Below the pieces are notes generated by a model. It ran no database searches. It was not told where the DNA came from and saw only the letters and a program-made list of their open reading frames with translations. Shown piece by piece: positions 20,928-30,529 of a stretch of 32,074 nt of DNA. How positions within the stretch are numbered: the first letter of the stretch is position 1; each line of letters starts with the position of its first letter. The stretch spans positions 1-32,074 of the forward strand of contig CACZUS010000051.1 of NCBI GenBank assembly GCA_902784425.1, given 5' to 3'. A program made the translations under genes and the position numbers. Origin of the DNA: an uncultured Bacteroidales bacterium (GTDB taxonomy: Bacteria > Bacteroidota > Bacteroidia > Bacteroidales > Paludibacteraceae).

Positions 20928-22154
20928 ATGAATAGACGAGTTGTAATTACCGGTATGGGTATTTACTCATGTTTGGGTAAGACATTAGATGAGGTTAAAG
21001 AATCCTTATACAATGGAAAGTCAGGAATTATCTTTGATCCTGCGCGTAAAGAAATGGGATTCAGATCCGCATTAACAGCAAAATTGGAGATTCCAGAATT
21101 GAAAGGTCAACTCAGTAGAAGTCAACGAGTATACATGCCAGAAGAGGCCAAATATGCATACGTTGCTACATGCGAAGCGTTGCAAAATGCAAATATAGAC
21201 ATGGATTACTTAGAGAAAAACGAAGTAGGTTTACTCTATGGTAATGATAGTACAGCAGACGCAGTTGTCAAAAGTGTAGACACCATGCGTGAAAAGAAAG
21301 ACACCACTTTAGTAGGTTCTGGAGCCATATTTCAATCCATGAACTCTACGGTAACCATGAATCTTGGTTGTATCTTTAAATTAAGAGGTATCAACCTAAC
21401 TGTTTCTGGTGCTTGCGCAAGTAGTTCTCATGCCATCGGACTTGGATCATTATTAATCAAATGGGGATTGCAAGATTGTATCGTATGTGGTGGTGCACAA
21501 GAGGTGAATCCATACTCTATTGGTAGTTTCGATGGTATCAGTGCCTTCTCTATCAGAGAGAGTGATCCAACGAAAGCATCACGTCCGTTCGACCGCGACC
21601 GTGATGGTTTGGTGCCTGGTGGTGGTGCAGCAACTGTCATCATTGAAAGTTACGAGCATGCAGTAAAGCGTGGAGCTCCTATCTTAGCAGAAGTTATTGG
21701 TTACGGATTCTCTTCTAACGGTGATCACATGTCTCAACCTAATGTAGATGGACCTAGTCGCTCATTACAAATGGCTATTCGTGAAGCAGGAATAGACATC
21801 CGTACAATTGGTTATTTGAATGCACATGCAACTTCAACACCAGTTGGAGACCGTCAAGAAGCAAAAGCCATCTTCAACGTATTCGGAGATCACAAACCAG
21901 AAGTAACTTCTACAAAGGCGATGACTGGACACGAAATGTGGATGGCAGGTGCCAGCGAAGTTGTCTATTCAATGTTGATGATGCAAAATAACTTCATCGC
22001 TCCAAACATCAACTTTGAAAATCCTGATGAGGATTCCGCAAAATTGAATATTCCAAACAAACGCATAGAGAAGAGTTTTGATACATTTCTATCCAATTCA
22101 TTTGGTTTCGGTGGTACCAACTCTACCCTCATCGTTAAAAAATTTGTTAAATAA
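20928..22154 (+). CDS. beta-ketoacyl-ACP synthase (KAS I/II-like)
   Basis: Elongates an ACP-bound acyl chain by decarboxylative condensation. 408 residues with a complete Cys-His-His set: C163 in VSGACASSSH, H300 in LNAHATSTPVGD, H335 in TKAMTGHEMWMAGASE. The last motif departs from the usual GHxxGAAG of FabF/FabB. Lysine K330 precedes it as in other KAS enzymes. First gene of a seven-gene run (ACP after 6 bp) with two dehydratases, a thioesterase, an exporter and an FAD oxidoreductase, so it more likely builds a specialised polyunsaturated acyl chain than ordinary fatty acids. No partner chain-length-factor gene is adjacent. Confidence 0.92.
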   Translation: MNRRVVITGMGIYSCLGKTLDEVKESLYNGKSGIIFDPARKEMGFRSALTAKLEIPELKGQLSRSQRVYMPEEAKYAYVATCEALQNANIDMDYLEKNEVGLLYGNDSTADAVVKSVDTMREKKDTTLVGSGAIFQSMNSTVTMNLGCIFKLRGINLTVSGACASSSHAIGLGSLLIKWGLQDCIVCGGAQEVNPYSIGSFDGISAFSIRESDPTKASRPFDRDRDGLVPGGGAATVIIESYEHAVKRGAPILAEVIGYGFSSNGDHMSQPNVDGPSRSLQMAIREAGIDIRTIGYLNAHATSTPVGDRQEAKAIFNVFGDHKPEVTSTKAMTGHEMWMAGASEVVYSMLMMQNNFIAPNINFENPDEDSAKLNIPNKRIEKSFDTFLSNSFGFGGTNSTLIVKKFVK

Positions 22155-22160
22155 AAAACC

Positions 22161-22415
22161 ATGCAAACTATGGAGAAACAACAATTTATTAACGAGCTTA
22201 ATGAACTGTTAGCAGAAGAGTTTGAGGTGGAAGTCTCCACTATACAGCCTGAAGGTTCTGTAAAAATGACTCTTGCTCTTGACAGCTTAAGTTTGATTGA
22301 TTTAGTTGCTGTTATTGAAAATACATACAAAGTGAAAATCAGTGGTCAGGAGATGATTCAAATAAAAAAATTCTCTGAACTCTACGATTTTTTGTATGAA
22401 AGAATTGAAAAATAA
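22161..22415 (+). CDS. acyl carrier protein
   Basis: 84 residues, acidic, four-helix ACP fold. The phosphopantetheine attachment serine is S42 in LALDSLSLIDLV, followed by the helix that contacts partner enzymes. ATG 22161 (MQTMEKQ) or 22170 could be the start. It is a dedicated ACP, distinct from a fatty-acid ACP by context: it follows the synthase by 6 bp and precedes the dehydratase by 5 bp. Confidence 0.92.
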   Translation: MQTMEKQQFINELNELLAEEFEVEVSTIQPEGSVKMTLALDSLSLIDLVAVIENTYKVKISGQEMIQIKKFSELYDFLYERIEK

Positions 22416-22420
22416 ATTTT

Positions 22421-22858
22421 ATGAGCAATAAAACACCTCTATTCGAAGGAGAAGGCATAAAGGAACTCATTCCTCAAAGAGCCCCTATCATGATGGTCGA
22501 CACCTTTTACGATGCTGACGAGATAGAGTGCAACACCGGCTTGTTAATCAAGTCTGACAACCTTTTCTGCGAAAACGGAGAACTTTTAGAACCAGGACTG
22601 ATTGAGCACATCGCTCAATCAGCTTCTGCTTTTGCAGGATACAAAGAGAAACTGAAAAACGCAGAAAACCCACCCATCGGCTACATCGGTGAAATCAAAA
22701 AATTCAAATTGATTCGCCGTCCTAAAGTGGGAGAACGTGTTTTAACACATATAAAAACCGTTTCCGAAGTCATGAATGTATCTCTCATAAAAACAGAGGC
22801 TAAAGTCAATGAAGAGACAATTGCCACCTGCCAAATGAAGATCTTCATCAAAGAATAA
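22421..22858 (+). CDS. hot-dog fold dehydratase-like protein (ApeP-like)
   Basis: 145 residues with the FabZ-type start IKELIPQRAPIMMVD and central helix LLEPGLIEHIAQSASAFAGY, in which E62 aligns with the active-site acid of FabZ. The histidine that FabZ/FabA carry in HFPG is absent: the matching stretch reads CENGELLEPG. This resembles ApeP of aryl-polyene clusters, which works together with an ApeI-type dehydratase. A canonical HFPG-containing partner is encoded two genes downstream. Function as part of a heteromeric dehydratase is inference. Confidence 0.8.
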   Translation: MSNKTPLFEGEGIKELIPQRAPIMMVDTFYDADEIECNTGLLIKSDNLFCENGELLEPGLIEHIAQSASAFAGYKEKLKNAENPPIGYIGEIKKFKLIRRPKVGERVLTHIKTVSEVMNVSLIKTEAKVNEETIATCQMKIFIKE

Positions 22859-22861
22859 GCA

Positions 22862-23302
22862 ATGGATAAAAACAGTTCCATATCCTCACAAAAACTCTCC
22901 TGCAGAACCGAGGTGAAAATCCGATTCTGCGAAGTGGATTCCCTAAGAATCGTGTGGCATGGCAACTATGTTAAATACTTGGAAGACGGACGTGAAAAAT
23001 TTGGCAACCAATATGGTATAGAATATATTACCATATACAAAAATGGGTTCACAGCCCCTTTGGTTGACCTAAAAATAAAATTCAAACGGAGCGTCACCAT
23101 TGGTGACACCATTATTGTTGAGACGACTTACAGACCGACACAGGCTGCAAAAATGGTATTCGACTATACCATATACAACAAATCTGATATGAGTGTTGTT
23201 CTCACAGCCGAAACCACACAGGTCTTTATGAGTATCGACGGAGAACTTCAACTCAACAACCCTGAATTTTTCCAAAAATGGAAAGAACATTGGGGCTGTT
23301 AA
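22862..23302 (+). CDS. 4HBT/YbgC-type acyl thioesterase
   Basis: 146 residues, hot-dog fold. The N-terminal motif RFCEVDSLRIVWHGNYVKYL contains the catalytic aspartate (D26) and the WHGNY signature of YbgC/4-hydroxybenzoyl-CoA-type thioesterases; the following EDGREKFG helix also fits. In polyene clusters such enzymes release the finished or stalled acyl chain from the carrier. It begins 3 bp after the preceding dehydratase-like gene. Confidence 0.88.
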   Translation: MDKNSSISSQKLSCRTEVKIRFCEVDSLRIVWHGNYVKYLEDGREKFGNQYGIEYITIYKNGFTAPLVDLKIKFKRSVTIGDTIIVETTYRPTQAAKMVFDYTIYNKSDMSVVLTAETTQVFMSIDGELQLNNPEFFQKWKEHWGC

Positions 23303-23332
23303 CTTTTACGATAAAAAGATTCATTTCACATT

Positions 23333-23707
23333 ATGCTAATAGGAGATTTTTTCACAATAGAGCAGATCACAACGAACGATGACGAAACATTGTATCTGAC
23401 AAAGCTAAATGCCGATCATGAAATATACAAGGGGCACTTTCCTGGCGATCCAATTTGTCCCGGCGTATGCAACGTTCAAACCATCCGTGAATGTGCAGAA
23501 CAGCAATTAGGCAAGAAGTTGAGAATCGACTCCATTGCTCTTTGCCGTTTCGCTGCTCTCATCACACCGCAAAATGCTCCCCAATTGCTCATCGCTCTTC
23601 ATATCGAAGAAAAAGATGAGAATAATTACCTGGCAACAGCTAAAATCACTTCGCCAGACTCCTCGATCCTTTACCTCGAATATAAAGGCGAATACAGCGC
23701 AGAATAA
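23333..23707 (+). CDS. hot-dog dehydratase (ApeI/FabZ-like)
   Basis: 124 residues. It has the FabZ/FabA active-site motif YKGHFPGDPICPGVCNVQT with H35, and E53 in RECAEQQ at the position of the catalytic acid. The strands LYLEYKGEYSAE close the fold. It lacks the FabZ N-terminal PHRxPFL helix, as ApeI-type enzymes do. Likely dehydrates 3-hydroxyacyl-ACP to give conjugated double bonds, together with the ApeP-like protein. Reading starts at ATG 23333 after a 30-bp gap. Confidence 0.85.
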   Translation: MLIGDFFTIEQITTNDDETLYLTKLNADHEIYKGHFPGDPICPGVCNVQTIRECAEQQLGKKLRIDSIALCRFAALITPQNAPQLLIALHIEEKDENNYLATAKITSPDSSILYLEYKGEYSAE

Positions 23708-23723
23708 CAAATAGAGACAAAAT

Positions 23724-26700
23724 ATGACAAACATCACAACTTCGATATACTATTTTTTCAAAAAAAATAAACTAGTATTTTGGTCGGTATTAATTCTTAG
23801 CACTTTGTTCTTCGTCTATTTCGGAACGAAAATCAAATACGAGGAAGACGTGACCAAGTTACTGCCATCAACAAAAGACAAAGACAACACAAAAGAGGTT
23901 GTTTTCGAAAACCTTAAAGTCAAAGATAAACTTTTCATTCTCTTTAAACCCACCTCTGATACAACAGATGTCTCTCGCACATCTGCATCTATCGACACTT
24001 TCATGAATAGACTACTCGTCAATCCAATATGCAAAGAGATGCTGGACGAATCTCTCTATCGTGTGGATGCCGACTTATTGAAAAACGCTATTGGCGAACT
24101 CTACAATCAACTTCCTATCTTTATCGACTCTTCTGATTATAAAATCATAGACTCCCTCACGACAAAAGAGGCCATTTCTCAACAAATGCAGGAGAATCTG
24201 ATGACCATCTACTCACCTACCGGATCGATGATGATGGATGTCATCCTCAAAGACCCTCTAGCTTTCAGAAAAGTATTTATGAGCAAAGCAAGTTCCCTAA
24301 AAGAGGGACTTGGATCCAACTATAAAATCATTGATAATCATTTCTTCTCCCCTGATAGTGCCATTGCCATCGTTTGGTTGTCTCCTAATTTCAAGACATT
24401 GGACTCCAAACTAAGCAGCAAACTTATCAACGAAATCGACAACGAGATTGAAGAATACAATAAGTTATACCCAGACATCGAAGTCTATTACCATGGAGCC
24501 GCACCTCAAAGTGTTTTCAATGCCAAACAAATCAAAGCTGATTTGTTCATGACACTCTCCGTCTCCATGCTGATTATCTGTATTATCCTATTGTTGTGCT
24601 ACCGCGATCCAAAATTCATATTGCAGATGGCGGTTCCTATCGGATACGGATTCTTCTTCTCTCTGACCATCATCTATTTCATCAAGGAACAAATATCCCT
24701 ATTGGCATTAGGTATTGGAGCAATCGTCTTAGGTGTCGCACTTAGCTATTGCCTACACGTGCTCATTCATAAAAAATATGTCAATGATCCTGTAAGAGTT
24801 ATTAAAGAACAGACCGTACCAGTCATTTTAGGATCACTCACCACCATCGGTGCATTCCTAAGTCTACTCTTCACTCGTGCAGAACTACTCAAAGACTTCG
24901 GAATATTTGCCTCACTAGCTTTAGTAGGTACCACATTGTTCTGCCTCATCTTCCTTCCTCAGTTTTTTGGAACAGAAAAAAAAGAACCTTCCAAAAAGAT
25001 TCTTTCTATTTTAAATAAGATAAACTCCTACCCTTTCGAAAGAAAAACATTGCTCATCTGTGGCATCACTTTTATCAGTATTCTTAGCTTTTTCACCTCC
25101 GATTGGGTGAAATTTGACACCAATATCAGGCATTTGAGCCATTATGAGCCAAAAGTGATAGAATCCCAGAAAATACTAGCCGAACATACCACAAAAGGTT
25201 ATCAAACAATGTACTTCGCAGCCACTTCTGAGAATTTAGACACTGCGTTATACTACAATCGTCAACTTTCCAAAATGTTGGAAGCTTTAGAAGATTTGGA
25301 AAAGGTGGGTTCGTTCACAAGCAACAATGAACAAATCTTTTTACTCCAATCGGAGCAACAAAAAAGAATTGATGCATGGAATAAATATTGGACACCGACC
25401 AAAAAGGCACAAGTGCTAACAGACATGGATCAAGCAGCAGTGGCATGCGGATTCACTCCCGACTCTCTGAACGCCTTCCGCCACCTCATAGAGTACACCA
25501 ACTATCAACCATTCTCCATCTATGAAAGCAAGGCTTTGCCAGAAGCTATCAAATGTAACTTGATGGAATACACAGATGGCAAATACTTAGTCTTTACCCC
25601 TGTTCTTCTGAAAGAGGAATACAAGACAGAAGTATGTGACGAAATCACTTCTCACAAACACCTTGTTGTCATCGATCCGTTCTATTATACAAGCGATATG
25701 TTGGAATTGATCCACAAAGACTTCAATGTAACACTAGGATTATCTTCACTCTTTGTGTTGATCGTATTGCTAATCGCCTACAAGAGTTTCATCTTGGCAT
25801 TTATATCATTCCTACCGATGACACTTAGTTGGTATATCGTATTGGGTGTGATGGGAATCTTTGGCATCGAGTTTAATCTGATAAACATTATCGTCTCCTC
25901 ATTCATCTACGGTGTGGGTGTAGACTATAGTATCTTTATTATGGATGGGTTATTGGCAGAATATCGAACCAAAAAGAATCTGTTGGTTTTCCACAAGACA
26001 GCCATATTATTCTCGGCAATGGTGCTAATCATCACGGTCACTTCCCTACTCTTCGCCCATCACCCATCGGTTCGCTCCATTGGTATTTCCACCCTCATTG
26101 GAATGAGTTCTGCACTACTGATTGCCTATACATTGCAACCATTCTTATTCTACTGGCTAATCAAAAGGCAGGCAGGCAAAGGTGTGGCACCAATTACGCT
26201 GTTCAACATTATGCACGGAGAGATTTATTTCAATAAGAAGAAATCGATGTCGAACAAACAACAGATACGCAACATCTACGAGTATAAAGGCTATGATGTA
26301 GAAAAAAGCATTAAAAACGAATTGAAAATCACACACAACTATAAAATAGTAAACGACCTCTTCCCTATGGAAGGAAGCATGTTGGATTACAACTGCAAAT
26401 ATGGTGTAAAAGCCTATTGGTTCCATCTCAACACAACCGACATGAAGATTGTCGGTTACGACAAAAACGAGGATGCCATCACCATTGCCAACAATTGTTA
26501 TTGCAAAGACGATCGCATTAAATTCACCTCCAATGAGGCCATATTGGAAAACAACTTCGACGTGATTGCCATCAATCCTTCGGAAGATACCATTCCAACG
26601 GTGTTAACACAATGTATGGAGTCGGCTCGCTACATTCTGCTTCACAAAGAAATGGTGGGAAAAATTCAGCTGCCAACAAAATTCCAAAAGAAGGACGAAG

Positions 26701-26729
26701 ACGAACGATTCATATTATATAAGGCATAA
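23724..26729 (+). CDS. RND/MMPL-family exporter with degenerate methyltransferase-like C terminus
   Basis: 1001 residues, inner-membrane lipid or pigment exporter. TM1 (about 16-33), periplasmic loop (to about 270), five TMs (273-416), TM7 (440-460), second loop (to about 670), five TMs (670-812): the duplicated 12-TM MMPL plan, with GVGVDYSIFIMDGLL in the second half. After about 814 comes a cytoplasmic tail: APITLFNIMHGE (822-833), then IRNIYEYKG from 848, then a methyltransferase-like fold with LDYNCKYG (887-894) where LDIGCGYG would be expected, VGYDKNEDAITIANN, and FDVIAINPS. Related Bacteroidetes proteins carry a lysophospholipid acyltransferase between these blocks; here it is missing and the SAM loop is decayed. 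Export of the operon's product is the likely role. Confidence 0.88.
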   Translation: MTNITTSIYYFFKKNKLVFWSVLILSTLFFVYFGTKIKYEEDVTKLLPSTKDKDNTKEVVFENLKVKDKLFILFKPTSDTTDVSRTSASIDTFMNRLLVNPICKEMLDESLYRVDADLLKNAIGELYNQLPIFIDSSDYKIIDSLTTKEAISQQMQENLMTIYSPTGSMMMDVILKDPLAFRKVFMSKASSLKEGLGSNYKIIDNHFFSPDSAIAIVWLSPNFKTLDSKLSSKLINEIDNEIEEYNKLYPDIEVYYHGAAPQSVFNAKQIKADLFMTLSVSMLIICIILLLCYRDPKFILQMAVPIGYGFFFSLTIIYFIKEQISLLALGIGAIVLGVALSYCLHVLIHKKYVNDPVRVIKEQTVPVILGSLTTIGAFLSLLFTRAELLKDFGIFASLALVGTTLFCLIFLPQFFGTEKKEPSKKILSILNKINSYPFERKTLLICGITFISILSFFTSDWVKFDTNIRHLSHYEPKVIESQKILAEHTTKGYQTMYFAATSENLDTALYYNRQLSKMLEALEDLEKVGSFTSNNEQIFLLQSEQQKRIDAWNKYWTPTKKAQVLTDMDQAAVACGFTPDSLNAFRHLIEYTNYQPFSIYESKALPEAIKCNLMEYTDGKYLVFTPVLLKEEYKTEVCDEITSHKHLVVIDPFYYTSDMLELIHKDFNVTLGLSSLFVLIVLLIAYKSFILAFISFLPMTLSWYIVLGVMGIFGIEFNLINIIVSSFIYGVGVDYSIFIMDGLLAEYRTKKNLLVFHKTAILFSAMVLIITVTSLLFAHHPSVRSIGISTLIGMSSALLIAYTLQPFLFYWLIKRQAGKGVAPITLFNIMHGEIYFNKKKSMSNKQQIRNIYEYKGYDVEKSIKNELKITHNYKIVNDLFPMEGSMLDYNCKYGVKAYWFHLNTTDMKIVGYDKNEDAITIANNCYCKDDRIKFTSNEAILENNFDVIAINPSEDTIPTVLTQCMESARYILLHKEMVGKIQLPTKFQKKDEDERFILYKA

Positions 26730-26738
26730 GATTCACGC

Positions 26739-28229
26739 ATGAAATACGATGTTGTCATAATAGGAGCAGGTTTAGGCGGTTTGGAGTGTGGATACACGCT
26801 ATCCAAGAACGGACTGAGTGTATGCATATTGGAGCAAAGTCCCCTATTAGGTGGATGTCTGCAAACGTTCCAAAGAAAAGGGAACACCTATGACACCGGA
26901 TTTCATTACATTGGAGGATTAGCAGATGGGCAACACCTCAACCGAATATTCAACTACTTTCGCCTTATGGATTTACCATGGAAGAGATTGGATGAAGAGT
27001 GTTTTGATGAAGTGATTTTCCATGGAAAAAGTTATGCCTTCGCCAACGGTTATGAACGATTCATAGAGACCTTATCTGCAAAATTTCCGCATCAGAAAGA
27101 GAACTTAAAACAATATATAGCCACACTCAGTGAAATTGGGCGAAACATATTCAAGAGTTTCTCCCCCCGTTCAGCAGAAGAGTTTTTTCAGTCAAAAGCC
27201 TTCACGCAATCCGCCTATGATTTTCTGAACGAGACGATCAGTGACCCGATGCTACGTAATGTATTAGCGGGCACGTCACTCAAGATGGAGCTTCATCCAC
27301 AGAAATTGCCACTTTACATATTTGCACAAATCAACGACTCCTATATCCAAAGTGCATGGAGAATAGAGGGAGGAGGAATGCAGATTGCGCAACAGTTAGC
27401 CCAGCACATCACATCGCAAGGAGGCATTGTACGCACCAAAGCGGCTGTGACAGAATTGATAGAGGAAAACGGGATCATCACCAAAGCTCTGCTTTCCAAC
27501 GGAGAAATAGTAGAAGGTGCCACATTCATTTCCAACATTCATCCTGTAAAGACATTGGATTTAGTAAAGGAAAGCAAGGTGATTCGAAATATTTACAAAA
27601 GACGAATCGGAAACATTCCCAACACATACGGAATGTTTACCGCCAACCTACAATTGAAGCCAGACACAACCCCATATTTAAATCGTAATTTATATATCTA
27701 CGAGACAGACAACATCTGGTCATACTACGAATACAAAGAAAACCAAAAGAAAGATTGCGTGCTTGTCAGCTACCAAACACCAGAAAAAGGAGAAGAGACA
27801 ACACGCAACATCGATCTACTGACACCTATGACTTGGAAAGAGGTGGCTCAATGGGAAGAGACCTCCATTATGAAGAGAGGTGCAGATTACGAAAAGATGA
27901 AAGAAGAGAAAGCCGCAGAATGTATTGAGTTGGCAAGCAAAAGAATACCCCTACTAAAAGAGAACATAGAACGAATTTATACAAGCACGCCGCTCACCTA
28001 TCGCGACTACACAGGCACCTATCAGGGCAGTGCATACGGAATACAAAAAGATCATGCCCAATTGGCCTATACCATGCTAACGCCAAAGACACCAATTTCA
28101 AATCTATTGTTAACTGGGCAGAATCTCAACCTGCACGGTGTGTTAGGAGTCAGCATGACCTCCTTCTTTACCTGTGCAGAGATTTTGGGAATGGATAAAA
28201 TTGCTGACGAGTTAAAAATAAACTCATAG
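26739..28229 (+). CDS. FAD-dependent oxidoreductase (CrtI/retinol-saturase-like)
   Basis: 496 residues. The N terminus binds FAD through GAGLGG (9-14) and E32; it continues with GGCLQTFQRKGNTYDTGFHYIGG, as in phytoene desaturases and all-trans-retinol 13,14-reductases, and ends with the flavin-closing motif NLLLTGQNLNLHGVLGVSMTSFFTCAEILG. Such enzymes add or remove double bonds in polyene chains. It follows the exporter by 9 bp, so it is the last gene of the operon and probably modifies the conjugated chain made by the synthase/dehydratase set. Direction (desaturation or saturation) cannot be told. Confidence 0.9.
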   Translation: MKYDVVIIGAGLGGLECGYTLSKNGLSVCILEQSPLLGGCLQTFQRKGNTYDTGFHYIGGLADGQHLNRIFNYFRLMDLPWKRLDEECFDEVIFHGKSYAFANGYERFIETLSAKFPHQKENLKQYIATLSEIGRNIFKSFSPRSAEEFFQSKAFTQSAYDFLNETISDPMLRNVLAGTSLKMELHPQKLPLYIFAQINDSYIQSAWRIEGGGMQIAQQLAQHITSQGGIVRTKAAVTELIEENGIITKALLSNGEIVEGATFISNIHPVKTLDLVKESKVIRNIYKRRIGNIPNTYGMFTANLQLKPDTTPYLNRNLYIYETDNIWSYYEYKENQKKDCVLVSYQTPEKGEETTRNIDLLTPMTWKEVAQWEETSIMKRGADYEKMKEEKAAECIELASKRIPLLKENIERIYTSTPLTYRDYTGTYQGSAYGIQKDHAQLAYTMLTPKTPISNLLLTGQNLNLHGVLGVSMTSFFTCAEILGMDKIADELKINS

Positions 28230-28531: not shown

Positions 28532-30529
28532 ATGAAGAAACTTTTATCATTAGCGGCTACTGCATTAGTAGCAATGTCAGCCAACGCTGCTATAAGTGAC
28601 TCTGATTTCGCTAACAACGACTACATTGGAGAGTGGGGTCGTTTGAAAGTACAGGGAACTCATATTGTCAGCGAAAAAGGCGAACAAATTCAAATAAAAG
28701 GATGGTCTTCCTTCGGATGGCAAAACAACTGGGGTGACTGTCACAGTGAAGGTGCTATTCAGCAGATGAAACTTTGGGGTGCCAACATTTATCGTGGTGC
28801 CATGTATGTAGAAGAGGATGGATACAACTCCAATCCAAGCGGTTTTACACAAACCACAAAGAACCTGATTGACTTGACAGCGAAATACAAGATGTACTAT
28901 CTTTGTGACTGGCACATATTGACTCCTGGAGGTCCATTAGATCAAAGATACAGTAAATTTAGAGATTACTTCAAAGAAATCTCACAATACGTAAAAGACA
29001 AAGGCTACCACCACGTGTTGTATGAAATCTGTAACGAGCCTAATAACAAGGATGGTGCCGATGGATCTTGGGGTACTATCAAAAATTATGCAAACCAAGT
29101 TATTCCTATCATTCGAGCTAATGACCCTAAAGCTATTGTCGTAGTAGGAACTCCACAGTGGGATCAACGTATTGATGAGGCTCAGAATAGTCCTCTTTCG
29201 GGATATGACAACATCATGTATTCATTCCACTATTACGCATGTTCCCATAAAGGATTGTTGAGTTACTACACAAATGCTGTAAATGTAATTCCAGTGTTTA
29301 TTTCTGAGTGGGGTGTTGCCAACTTCGATGGTGGTCAACGACAAGGAAGAAACATTGACGACAATTGTAAGGATGGAGCAAGAGCGCTTATGAATGAAGC
29401 ATTTGCCAACAAAACACCTTGGTGCTGTTGGTCATTTGGAGAGAAAGAAGAGCAAGCTTCAGCCGTAACGAGTTGTGGTAGTATGGAACTATCTCCTTCA
29501 GGACAGTTCGTAGTACAAAACTTCATGGGTGGATGTCTAGATTGTAAGATAAAACAAAGTGATTGCTATGTGAACGAGTGTCAACATATACCTGGTATTC
29601 TCGACTTGGGTTTGTATGATCAAAACCCAGATGGTGTAGCAGAGAAAGAAGGCGGTCTTACCGTTGTCGGTGCCGGTGAAGGCGTTGCATATCACGAGGA
29701 GAACACGGTAGCTGACGAGCAAAACGATGGATCTTTGTGTAATGGTGCATACAAATGGGGTGGTGAAGGATTCAACTTCAGACCTGATGAGTGTGTGGAT
29801 GCATCCAACTGTTATGGTCTAACAAACACAGAAGGTTGGCATAACTTGGGTTATATCGAGCCTCTTGAGTGGGAACAATTCACTGTTGAAATTGAAGAAC
29901 CAGGTTACTACACTGTTGAAGCTTTGGTTAACCCAACTACTAACCAAGAGTTGAGTATCACATCAAGAACTTATGGAGAAAACCTTTTGGTTGATCTAGA
30001 TGCAAGTACACCAACTGAGCCTGCATTATTACCAAGCATCTCTTTCTCTACCAACTTAAAAGATCAGGGTAATGACAACTGGAAATTTTGGGAATGGGAA
30101 ACAGCTGTTAACAACTTGGATGATCTTGAAGACATCAATGCAGGTATACTATTTAAAGAAGCTGGTAAGCAAACCATCCGCGTCAGCTGGGGTGCTGGAG
30201 GTAGCAAGAAAGAAACTGCAGCAAAAGGAGATTTCGGTCCACTTAACATCAAATTTAAATCCGCATACACAGGTGAAGGATATTCTGAACTTCAAAGTGT
30301 AAAAGCAGCAAAGGCTGATGATGTCACTATCTATCCTAACCCAACTTCTGATGTTGTTTATGCAACAGGAGATGTGGCTAAAATTGAGATTTGCAACATC
30401 GCAGGTTGTATTGTTGCTAAATCAGCATCAAACTCTATAAACATTGCAAATCTTGCAAATGGTACTTACATTGCAAAAGTAACATTGGGTAATGGTGCTG
30501 TTGCCACTAAGACAATCATTAAGAAATAA
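28532..30529 (+). CDS. GH5 endoglucanase with CBM6-like module and T9SS sorting domain
   Basis: Secreted cellulase, 665 residues. Signal peptide 1-19 (MKKLLSLAATALVAMSANA). The GH5 barrel (about 35-325) has the acid/base E169 in YEICNEP, nucleophile E259 in VFISEWGV, and substrate-site residues in SFHYYA (H233, Y234); features fit the GH5_2-type endo-beta-1,4-glucanases. A short linker holds four cysteines (C335, C338, C345, C350). A beta-sandwich of CBM6/35 type follows (about 380-585, with YIEPLEWEQFTVEIEEPGYY). The last 70 residues are a type A T9SS sorting domain (VTIYPNPTSD to the end KTIIKK), so it is exported across the outer membrane by T9SS and probably anchored or released at the surface. 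Confidence 0.93.
   Translation: MKKLLSLAATALVAMSANAAISDSDFANNDYIGEWGRLKVQGTHIVSEKGEQIQIKGWSSFGWQNNWGDCHSEGAIQQMKLWGANIYRGAMYVEEDGYNSNPSGFTQTTKNLIDLTAKYKMYYLCDWHILTPGGPLDQRYSKFRDYFKEISQYVKDKGYHHVLYEICNEPNNKDGADGSWGTIKNYANQVIPIIRANDPKAIVVVGTPQWDQRIDEAQNSPLSGYDNIMYSFHYYACSHKGLLSYYTNAVNVIPVFISEWGVANFDGGQRQGRNIDDNCKDGARALMNEAFANKTPWCCWSFGEKEEQASAVTSCGSMELSPSGQFVVQNFMGGCLDCKIKQSDCYVNECQHIPGILDLGLYDQNPDGVAEKEGGLTVVGAGEGVAYHEENTVADEQNDGSLCNGAYKWGGEGFNFRPDECVDASNCYGLTNTEGWHNLGYIEPLEWEQFTVEIEEPGYYTVEALVNPTTNQELSITSRTYGENLLVDLDASTPTEPALLPSISFSTNLKDQGNDNWKFWEWETAVNNLDDLEDINAGILFKEAGKQTIRVSWGAGGSKKETAAKGDFGPLNIKFKSAYTGEGYSELQSVKAAKADDVTIYPNPTSDVVYATGDVAKIEICNIAGCIVAKSASNSINIANLANGTYIAKVTLGNGAVATKTIIKK

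Follow-up and report, generated by a model that had tools for sequence, protein, structure and literature searches.

The question raised by this locus is which function is served by the methyltransferase-like domain at the C-terminus of an MMPL exporter. The window, by which we mean the entire 32,074-nucleotide stretch of DNA that was analyzed, encodes this exporter as a single open reading frame of 1001 amino acids (positions 23724-26729; forward strand, as are all features of the exporter and its gene cassette described below). An earlier note on this DNA had viewed residues 814-1001 of the protein as the remnant of a transporter/acyltransferase/methyltransferase fusion that had lost its acyltransferase and persisted in an intact reading frame; the integrity of the frame was confirmed. 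A protein annotated in NZ_AP026868.1 as a 'trifunctional MMPL family transporter/lysophospholipid acyltransferase/class I SAM-dependent methyltransferase' exemplifies the family to which the comparison had been made. Its members share with the window protein an exporter body and a methyltransferase-derived C-terminal domain with an NYxYKG-like start, and in many cases an adjoining FAD oxidoreductase.

The body of the window exporter (residues 1-821; positions 23724-26186) is recognized by the MMPL profile PF03176 (E 8.6e-23), the sole Pfam model that scores above its cut-off on this protein, and it has homologues that are 95 to 28% identical. It is followed by a junction (residues 822-841; 26187-26246) that was delineated by an alignment with 12 trifunctional proteins and consists of the segment APITLFNIMHGE (residues 822-833) and a short linker, and by the tail domain (residues 842-1001; 26247-26726), for which a compact class-I methyltransferase fold is predicted. 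Within the tail, the segment IRNIYEYKG (residues 848-856; 26265-26291) marks the start of the methyltransferase part; its lysine and glycine are invariant in all 12 trifunctional methyltransferases and in all 36 tails of acyltransferase-less exporters that were compared. Further downstream lies motif I, LDYNCKYG (residues 887-894; 26382-26405), in which the alignment reveals the replacement of two of the three SAM-loop glycines, followed by the acidic residue of motif II, D913 (26460-26462), which we take to be involved in SAM binding and which is present in 35 of the 36 tails. A methionine, Met842 (26247-26249), stands at the very start of the tail and, as judged by eye, also in 24 of the 36 tails; it is a possible internal start that would yield a free tail.

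A hidden Markov model that was built from the 12 trifunctional methyltransferase domains, and that excluded any acyltransferase-less member, matches the window tail with an E-value of 7.5e-16 (56.5 bits), and conversely, a profile that contains nothing but tails recovers all 12 trifunctional domains (E 1.7e-23 to 1.5e-13). Pfam searches with the tail alone yielded sub-threshold methyltransferase matches (MTS, 18.4 bits versus a cut-off of 23). At the sequence level, the window tail is a homologue of the trifunctional methyltransferase. The proposed kinship to the trifunctional proteins therefore holds for either flank, as does the narrow gap of about 15 residues that had been read between them, since APITLFNIMHGE and IRNIYEYKG are 14 residues apart. 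At the same junction, the trifunctional proteins possess what looks by eye like a hydrophobic stretch, along with the acyltransferase, amounting to about 230 extra residues in the L106 protein. A model of this acyltransferase found no match at E <= 1e-3 in the short or the approximately 1000-residue exporters, the window protein included, and no PlsC-type acyltransferase (PF01553) was detected in the window exporter at E <= 1. The methyltransferase part is likewise short, as had been noticed: 160 residues, compared with 217-220 in five trifunctional methyltransferases measured in the same way.

The relationship between the tail and the fused methyltransferases is also reflected in a scan of 394 genomes of the phylum with a profile made from 27 tails and 5 trifunctional methyltransferases (E <= 1e-6), which found matches in 78 genomes. 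Matches that begin at position 7 or before belong, with the exception of the window, to frames of 1165-1305 amino acids, and all others begin at position 24 or later and cover the generic core; in this sample, the first segment of the tail is hence common to the fused methyltransferases and not to free ones. A fusion with a neighboring free methyltransferase was considered as an origin of the tail and rejected, because the studied loci, some of which have short flanks, contain no stand-alone methyltransferase or tail-related reading frame at E <= 1e-3 other than the second piece of a split trifunctional gene (L105).

The exporter gene is embedded in a seven-gene cassette. In the order of transcription, this encodes a beta-ketoacyl-ACP synthase (KAS; 20928-22154; PF00109/PF02801 and synteny), an acyl carrier protein (22161-22415; PF00550), a weakly assigned FabZ-like dehydratase (22421-22858; E 3.8e-9, 36.6 bits against a curated cut-off of 113), a hot-dog thioesterase (22862-23302; PF13279/PF03061), a FabA/ApeI-like dehydratase (23333-23707; PF07977, E 1e-5, 25.6 bits against a cut-off of 23), the exporter, and a CrtI-like FAD oxidoreductase (26739-28229; PF01593 and synteny). 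The core of aryl-polyene/flexirubin-type clusters (KAS, acyl carrier protein, dehydratase, thioesterase, MMPL exporter) is present, one dehydratase call being weak; a starter ligase, a ketoreductase and LolA were not found among the seven reading frames searched (20928-28229). In the related locus L053, LolA and FabG-like genes come after the CrtI-like gene. A relative of the latter gene is located 3' of the exporter in 8 of 16 acyltransferase-bearing loci, and an NAD(P)/FAD oxidoreductase gene adjoins two further trifunctional genes. The cassette, whole or partial, accompanies tailed and tail-less exporters alike, and many more distant tail-less loci lack it. Beyond the cassette, the window encodes a large secreted protein (28532-30529) with what appear by eye to be a cellulase-like glycoside hydrolase and a C-terminal sorting-type domain.

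Two groups of known clusters are instructive in this context. The E. coli aryl-polyene cluster, as described in PMC8253772, has a predicted transporter (ApeM), acyltransferase (ApeD) and methyltransferase (ApeB, for head-group methylation), so that three predicted functions are gathered around one exporter, together with genes for an acyl carrier protein, KAS, dehydratase and thioesterase; in contrast to the fused protein, ApeM, ApeD and ApeB are separate genes, and ApeB is listed there as a SAM-dependent methyltransferase. The parts of the fused protein would be the equivalents of ApeM, ApeD and ApeB. The flexirubin clusters of Chitinophaga and Flavobacterium also stem from Bacteroidota and, as described in PMC3992019, comprise a predicted exporter, an acyltransferase and polyene synthesis genes; the window cluster differs from them in being a short cassette of seven genes with no acyltransferase on its contig. 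Titles and the opening parts of abstracts in the literature contained no description of the methyltransferase-derived tail of an acyltransferase-less exporter.

The window exporter is not a lone remnant, as the earlier note might suggest, but represents an old clade, and the tail has conserved residues of its own. Relatives were collected from 61 genomes related to that of the window (of which 33 matched at E <= 1e-20), from a scan across bacterial and archaeal genomes (the best 80 of 155 relatives, corresponding to 79 loci), and from the stretches around second exporter copies. They fall into three size classes: exporters only (801-853 amino acids), exporters with a tail (967-1026), and proteins that contain the acyltransferase (1156-1304). 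Fragments and two unusual genes stand outside these classes. L071:9787-13785 (1332 amino acids) had been considered as a close trifunctional intermediate, but the alignment showed that here an exporter without a tail continues in frame into the CrtI-like oxidoreductase downstream of it. At L105:9983-13859, a trifunctional gene is distributed over two overlapping frames of 945 and 363 amino acids, which would be due to a frameshift or an assembly error. When 200 genomes of the family were surveyed, matches at E <= 1e-10 turned up in 42, among which a hand count gave 28 that possess the tail without the acyltransferase; they comprise 16 of 16 genomes in the window's own genus as well as 9 of g20, 2 of g226 and 1 of g6, with two of the 28 copies running off the end of their contig. 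An assembly artifact is unlikely, as numerous independent assemblies show this architecture. Among the 394 phylum genomes, the approximately 1000-residue form was detected in the window's own genome only, and the titles of the 79 loci (best 80 of 155 relatives) name groups of Bacteroidota, so that the same short tail was not encountered in distant phyla. Two candidates for stand-alone tails, L142 and L152, were discarded since both run off the contig end.

The order in which the parts were lost or gained was approached through a tree of the exporter body with 101 distinct rows (46 short, 36 tailed, 1 CrtI-fused and 18 acyltransferase-bearing), from which L001, the fragments L055, L072, L087, L093 and L102, and identical copies were left out. 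The 83 acyltransferase-less rows all lie on one side of a single branch (SH-aLRT 100). The short form requires 4 changes and the tailed form 5 on this tree, of which its starred branches force 2 and 3; such counts are blind to gain versus loss, and it is the homology of the tail to the trifunctional methyltransferase that points to several losses of the tail. Of the 83 acyltransferase-less rows, which were chosen by similarity and do not constitute a survey, 47 carry no tail (the 46 short exporters and the CrtI fusion); over evolutionary time, the tail is hence dispensable.

A rooted tree was calculated from 45 of the 101 rows, two trifunctional rows and three proteobacterial outgroup rows; two of the outgroup exporters are part of annotated clusters that include KAS, dehydratase, thioesterase and LolA genes, and the third comes from DNA without annotation. 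In this tree, the acyltransferase-less clade is nested, via starred branches, among acyltransferase-bearing rows, which favors a single loss of the acyltransferase without proving it. The deletion claimed in the earlier note thus finds backing in the rooted tree, but an alternative root is left standing by the AU test, in which a clade of all acyltransferase-bearing exporters was not rejected (log-likelihood difference 8.28, p 0.107); moreover, the outgroup is attached by very long branches, which according to a program warning may attract one trifunctional row. This test result leaves some room for the converse history, in which the ancestral fusion consisted of the MMPL exporter and the methyltransferase alone, and the acyltransferase was inserted later into the other branch and never deleted here; given the nested position of the acyltransferase-less forms in the best rooted tree, we regard this history as unlikely.

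Is the tail still an enzyme? Motif counts were derived from an alignment of 36 distinct tails with the 12 trifunctional methyltransferases, in which a site was considered conserved when at least 11 of the latter share one residue. Since the tails were picked by open frames of 940-1100 amino acids, broken copies are absent from the 36, and the distinct tails of L142, L152, L156 and L157 stand outside this count; their versions of motif I (LNYGCGAA, LNYGSGAA and twice LDYGCEYG) all lack a glycine. Five residues, K13, G14, C49, A80 and F92 in the numbering of L106, are kept in all 36 tails and D71 in 35, and there is also conservation that is specific to the tails, for instance a threonine in 36 of 36 where the trifunctional methyltransferases carry a glutamate. 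The motifs LHY, TExxST and TSN, each site of which is found in 11-12 of the 12 trifunctional methyltransferases, are kept as motifs in none of the 36 tails, although the alignment of this gapped C-terminal half is poor and uncertain: L, H and Y of the first are each kept in 0/36, lone letters of the second persist (E in 2, S in 11 tails) without forming a motif, and of the third the serine is kept in 5 tails, the threonine and asparagine in none. The SAM loop presents a different picture. The GxGxG signature is complete in all 12 trifunctional methyltransferases and in 20 of the 36 tails; at least one glycine has been lost in the other 16, through at least five changes on the tree. Asparagine takes the place of the first glycine in the window protein and in its four nearest relatives, whose second position reads K, N, N, G and K, beginning with the window. 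The degenerate motif I that had been described is consequently real in the window, but it characterizes the window's branch and some others and not the family as a whole.

The absence of LHY, TExxST and TSN and the degenerate motif I of the window support the earlier view of an apparently non-catalytic domain; the sequence of the window tail would argue against both SAM binding and methyl transfer. One may nevertheless imagine that the tail has remained a methyltransferase with a reshaped active site that acts on a smaller or membrane-presented substrate, with no more than a weakening of the SAM site in the window's branch. The intact GxGxG of 20 tails and the motif II acid of 35 indicate that SAM binding may persist in many tails, and the structure predicted for the tail is a complete and compact methyltransferase fold (pLDDT 93.4) with the seven-stranded Rossmann-like architecture of class I enzymes. 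With the catalytic and substrate motifs gone from every one of the 36 tails and SAM-loop glycines lost recurrently, we nonetheless consider a surviving enzymatic activity improbable.

The same features of the N-terminal half, which is retained along with motif II, and of the glycine loop in 20 of 36 tails could befit a sensor that binds SAM or SAH without turnover and gates the exporter, this capacity being lost or altered in the window's branch. Such a role is more doubtful still, for the loop has disappeared in several lineages whose tails continue to show dN/dS values of about 0.1. The tail is under purifying selection, as deduced from sequence comparisons: dN/dS ranges from 0.036 to 0.293 in the 11 of 18 pairs for which it could be computed, the remaining pairs being saturated, and from 0.076 to 0.108 in the three pairwise comparisons among the window and the two relatives closest to it. 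That the tail is nothing but a neutrally decaying remnant, as its faster evolution (a dN roughly 1 to 5 times as high as in the body) and its absence from 47 of the 83 acyltransferase-less rows might suggest, is least probable of all in view of these low values for the window's closest pairs and the confident prediction of a complete fold.

With regard to the exported product, the earlier note had proposed that it lacks an acylation step. This does not apply in general, because 17 of the 33 loci with a KAS gene upstream of the exporter contain a separate acyltransferase gene of about 420-470 codons related to those of L038 and L053, located directly upstream of the KAS gene in 16 and 4.1 kb away in one. 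Two of the 17, the stand-alone genes L038:5532-6887 and L053:7082-8452 upstream of KAS, were tested, and both match PF01553. For the window's genus, the proposal may still be correct. The cluster acyltransferase is absent from the window locus, where the upstream sequence spans 20.9 kb, and from six loci of the genus, where it spans 1.4-7.2 kb; a search of four genomes in the genus likewise revealed no close relative, the nearest protein being 27-28% identical; an orthologue of the latter also occurs in a genome that carries the cluster acyltransferase. In the window's own genome, PF01553 finds seven matches, of which one lies within a second exporter on contig C23 and none on the window's contig. 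Acylation in this genus thus either falls to a different enzyme or does not take place. Three further ideas were discarded. The cluster acyltransferase is probably not the displaced fused domain, as the proteins of L045, L086, L038, L089 and L071 match the fused-acyltransferase profile only at 1.3e-7 to 8.5e-4, which suggests an acyltransferase of another kind; a PlsC-type protein encoded on contig C83 is not the relocated cluster acyltransferase, as one genome (G020) carries both the latter and the C83 orthologue; and the cluster acyltransferase shows no link to the tail, as it accompanies tailed and tail-less exporters alike.

The second exporter of the window's genome (L111:7983-11693, corresponding to G000:C23:40253-43963; 1236 amino acids) belongs to the same exporter superfamily but, in contrast to the window protein, has kept its acyltransferase (PF01553, E 3.1e-20), and its methyltransferase ends after the N-terminal half in a lysine-rich end. 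Its neighbors are KAS-type, GT2 and dehydratase-like genes. Half-length methyltransferases are also present in L112 and L118, with a lysine-rich end, and in L117 and L120, which simply end. The tail profile hits two places only in this genome, the window and C23 (E <= 1e-10, 17 candidates scored); the full methyltransferase has hence been lost in both exporters, and the acyltransferase has been kept in the C23 copy only.

Considering these data together, we suggest, with a probability of roughly 0.6, that the tail is a pseudo-methyltransferase which a flexirubin/aryl-polyene-type exporter has retained as a module for docking or regulation. A domain that is devoid of the enzyme's key parts and yet kept by selection probably has a non-enzymatic job. 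The ancestor would have combined exporter, acyltransferase and methyltransferase in one polypeptide chain; after the loss of the acyltransferase, the methyltransferase would have lost its substrate-binding half, leaving the compact fold as a non-catalytic pseudoenzyme, retained by selection, at the cytosolic end of the pump. We presume this location from the topology of RND exporters; a model of the full-length protein (pLDDT 81.3, pTM 0.68) was uninformative as to the placement of the tail on the pump. The pseudoenzyme might dock or regulate cytosolic lipid-making partners, with their product then being handed to the pump. By analogy with MmpL7, an MMPL exporter reported to bind the polyketide synthase PpsE (PMC1238737), a docking or regulatory role on the cytosolic side is the most likely.

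As a practical consequence, a fused or methyltransferase-like exporter in the clusters of gut Bacteroidales need not signal a methylation or acylation step. The existence of a single exporter family whose members occur with acyltransferase and methyltransferase, without the acyltransferase, and without both makes a docking role of the enzyme domains of MMPL pumps testable. More tentatively, and as a proposal that could well prove wrong, this exporter family may have turned a fused biosynthetic enzyme into a pseudoenzyme that serves the transporter as a structural or regulatory element and couples polyene-lipid synthesis to export, with the acyltransferase either moved to a separate gene or dropped.
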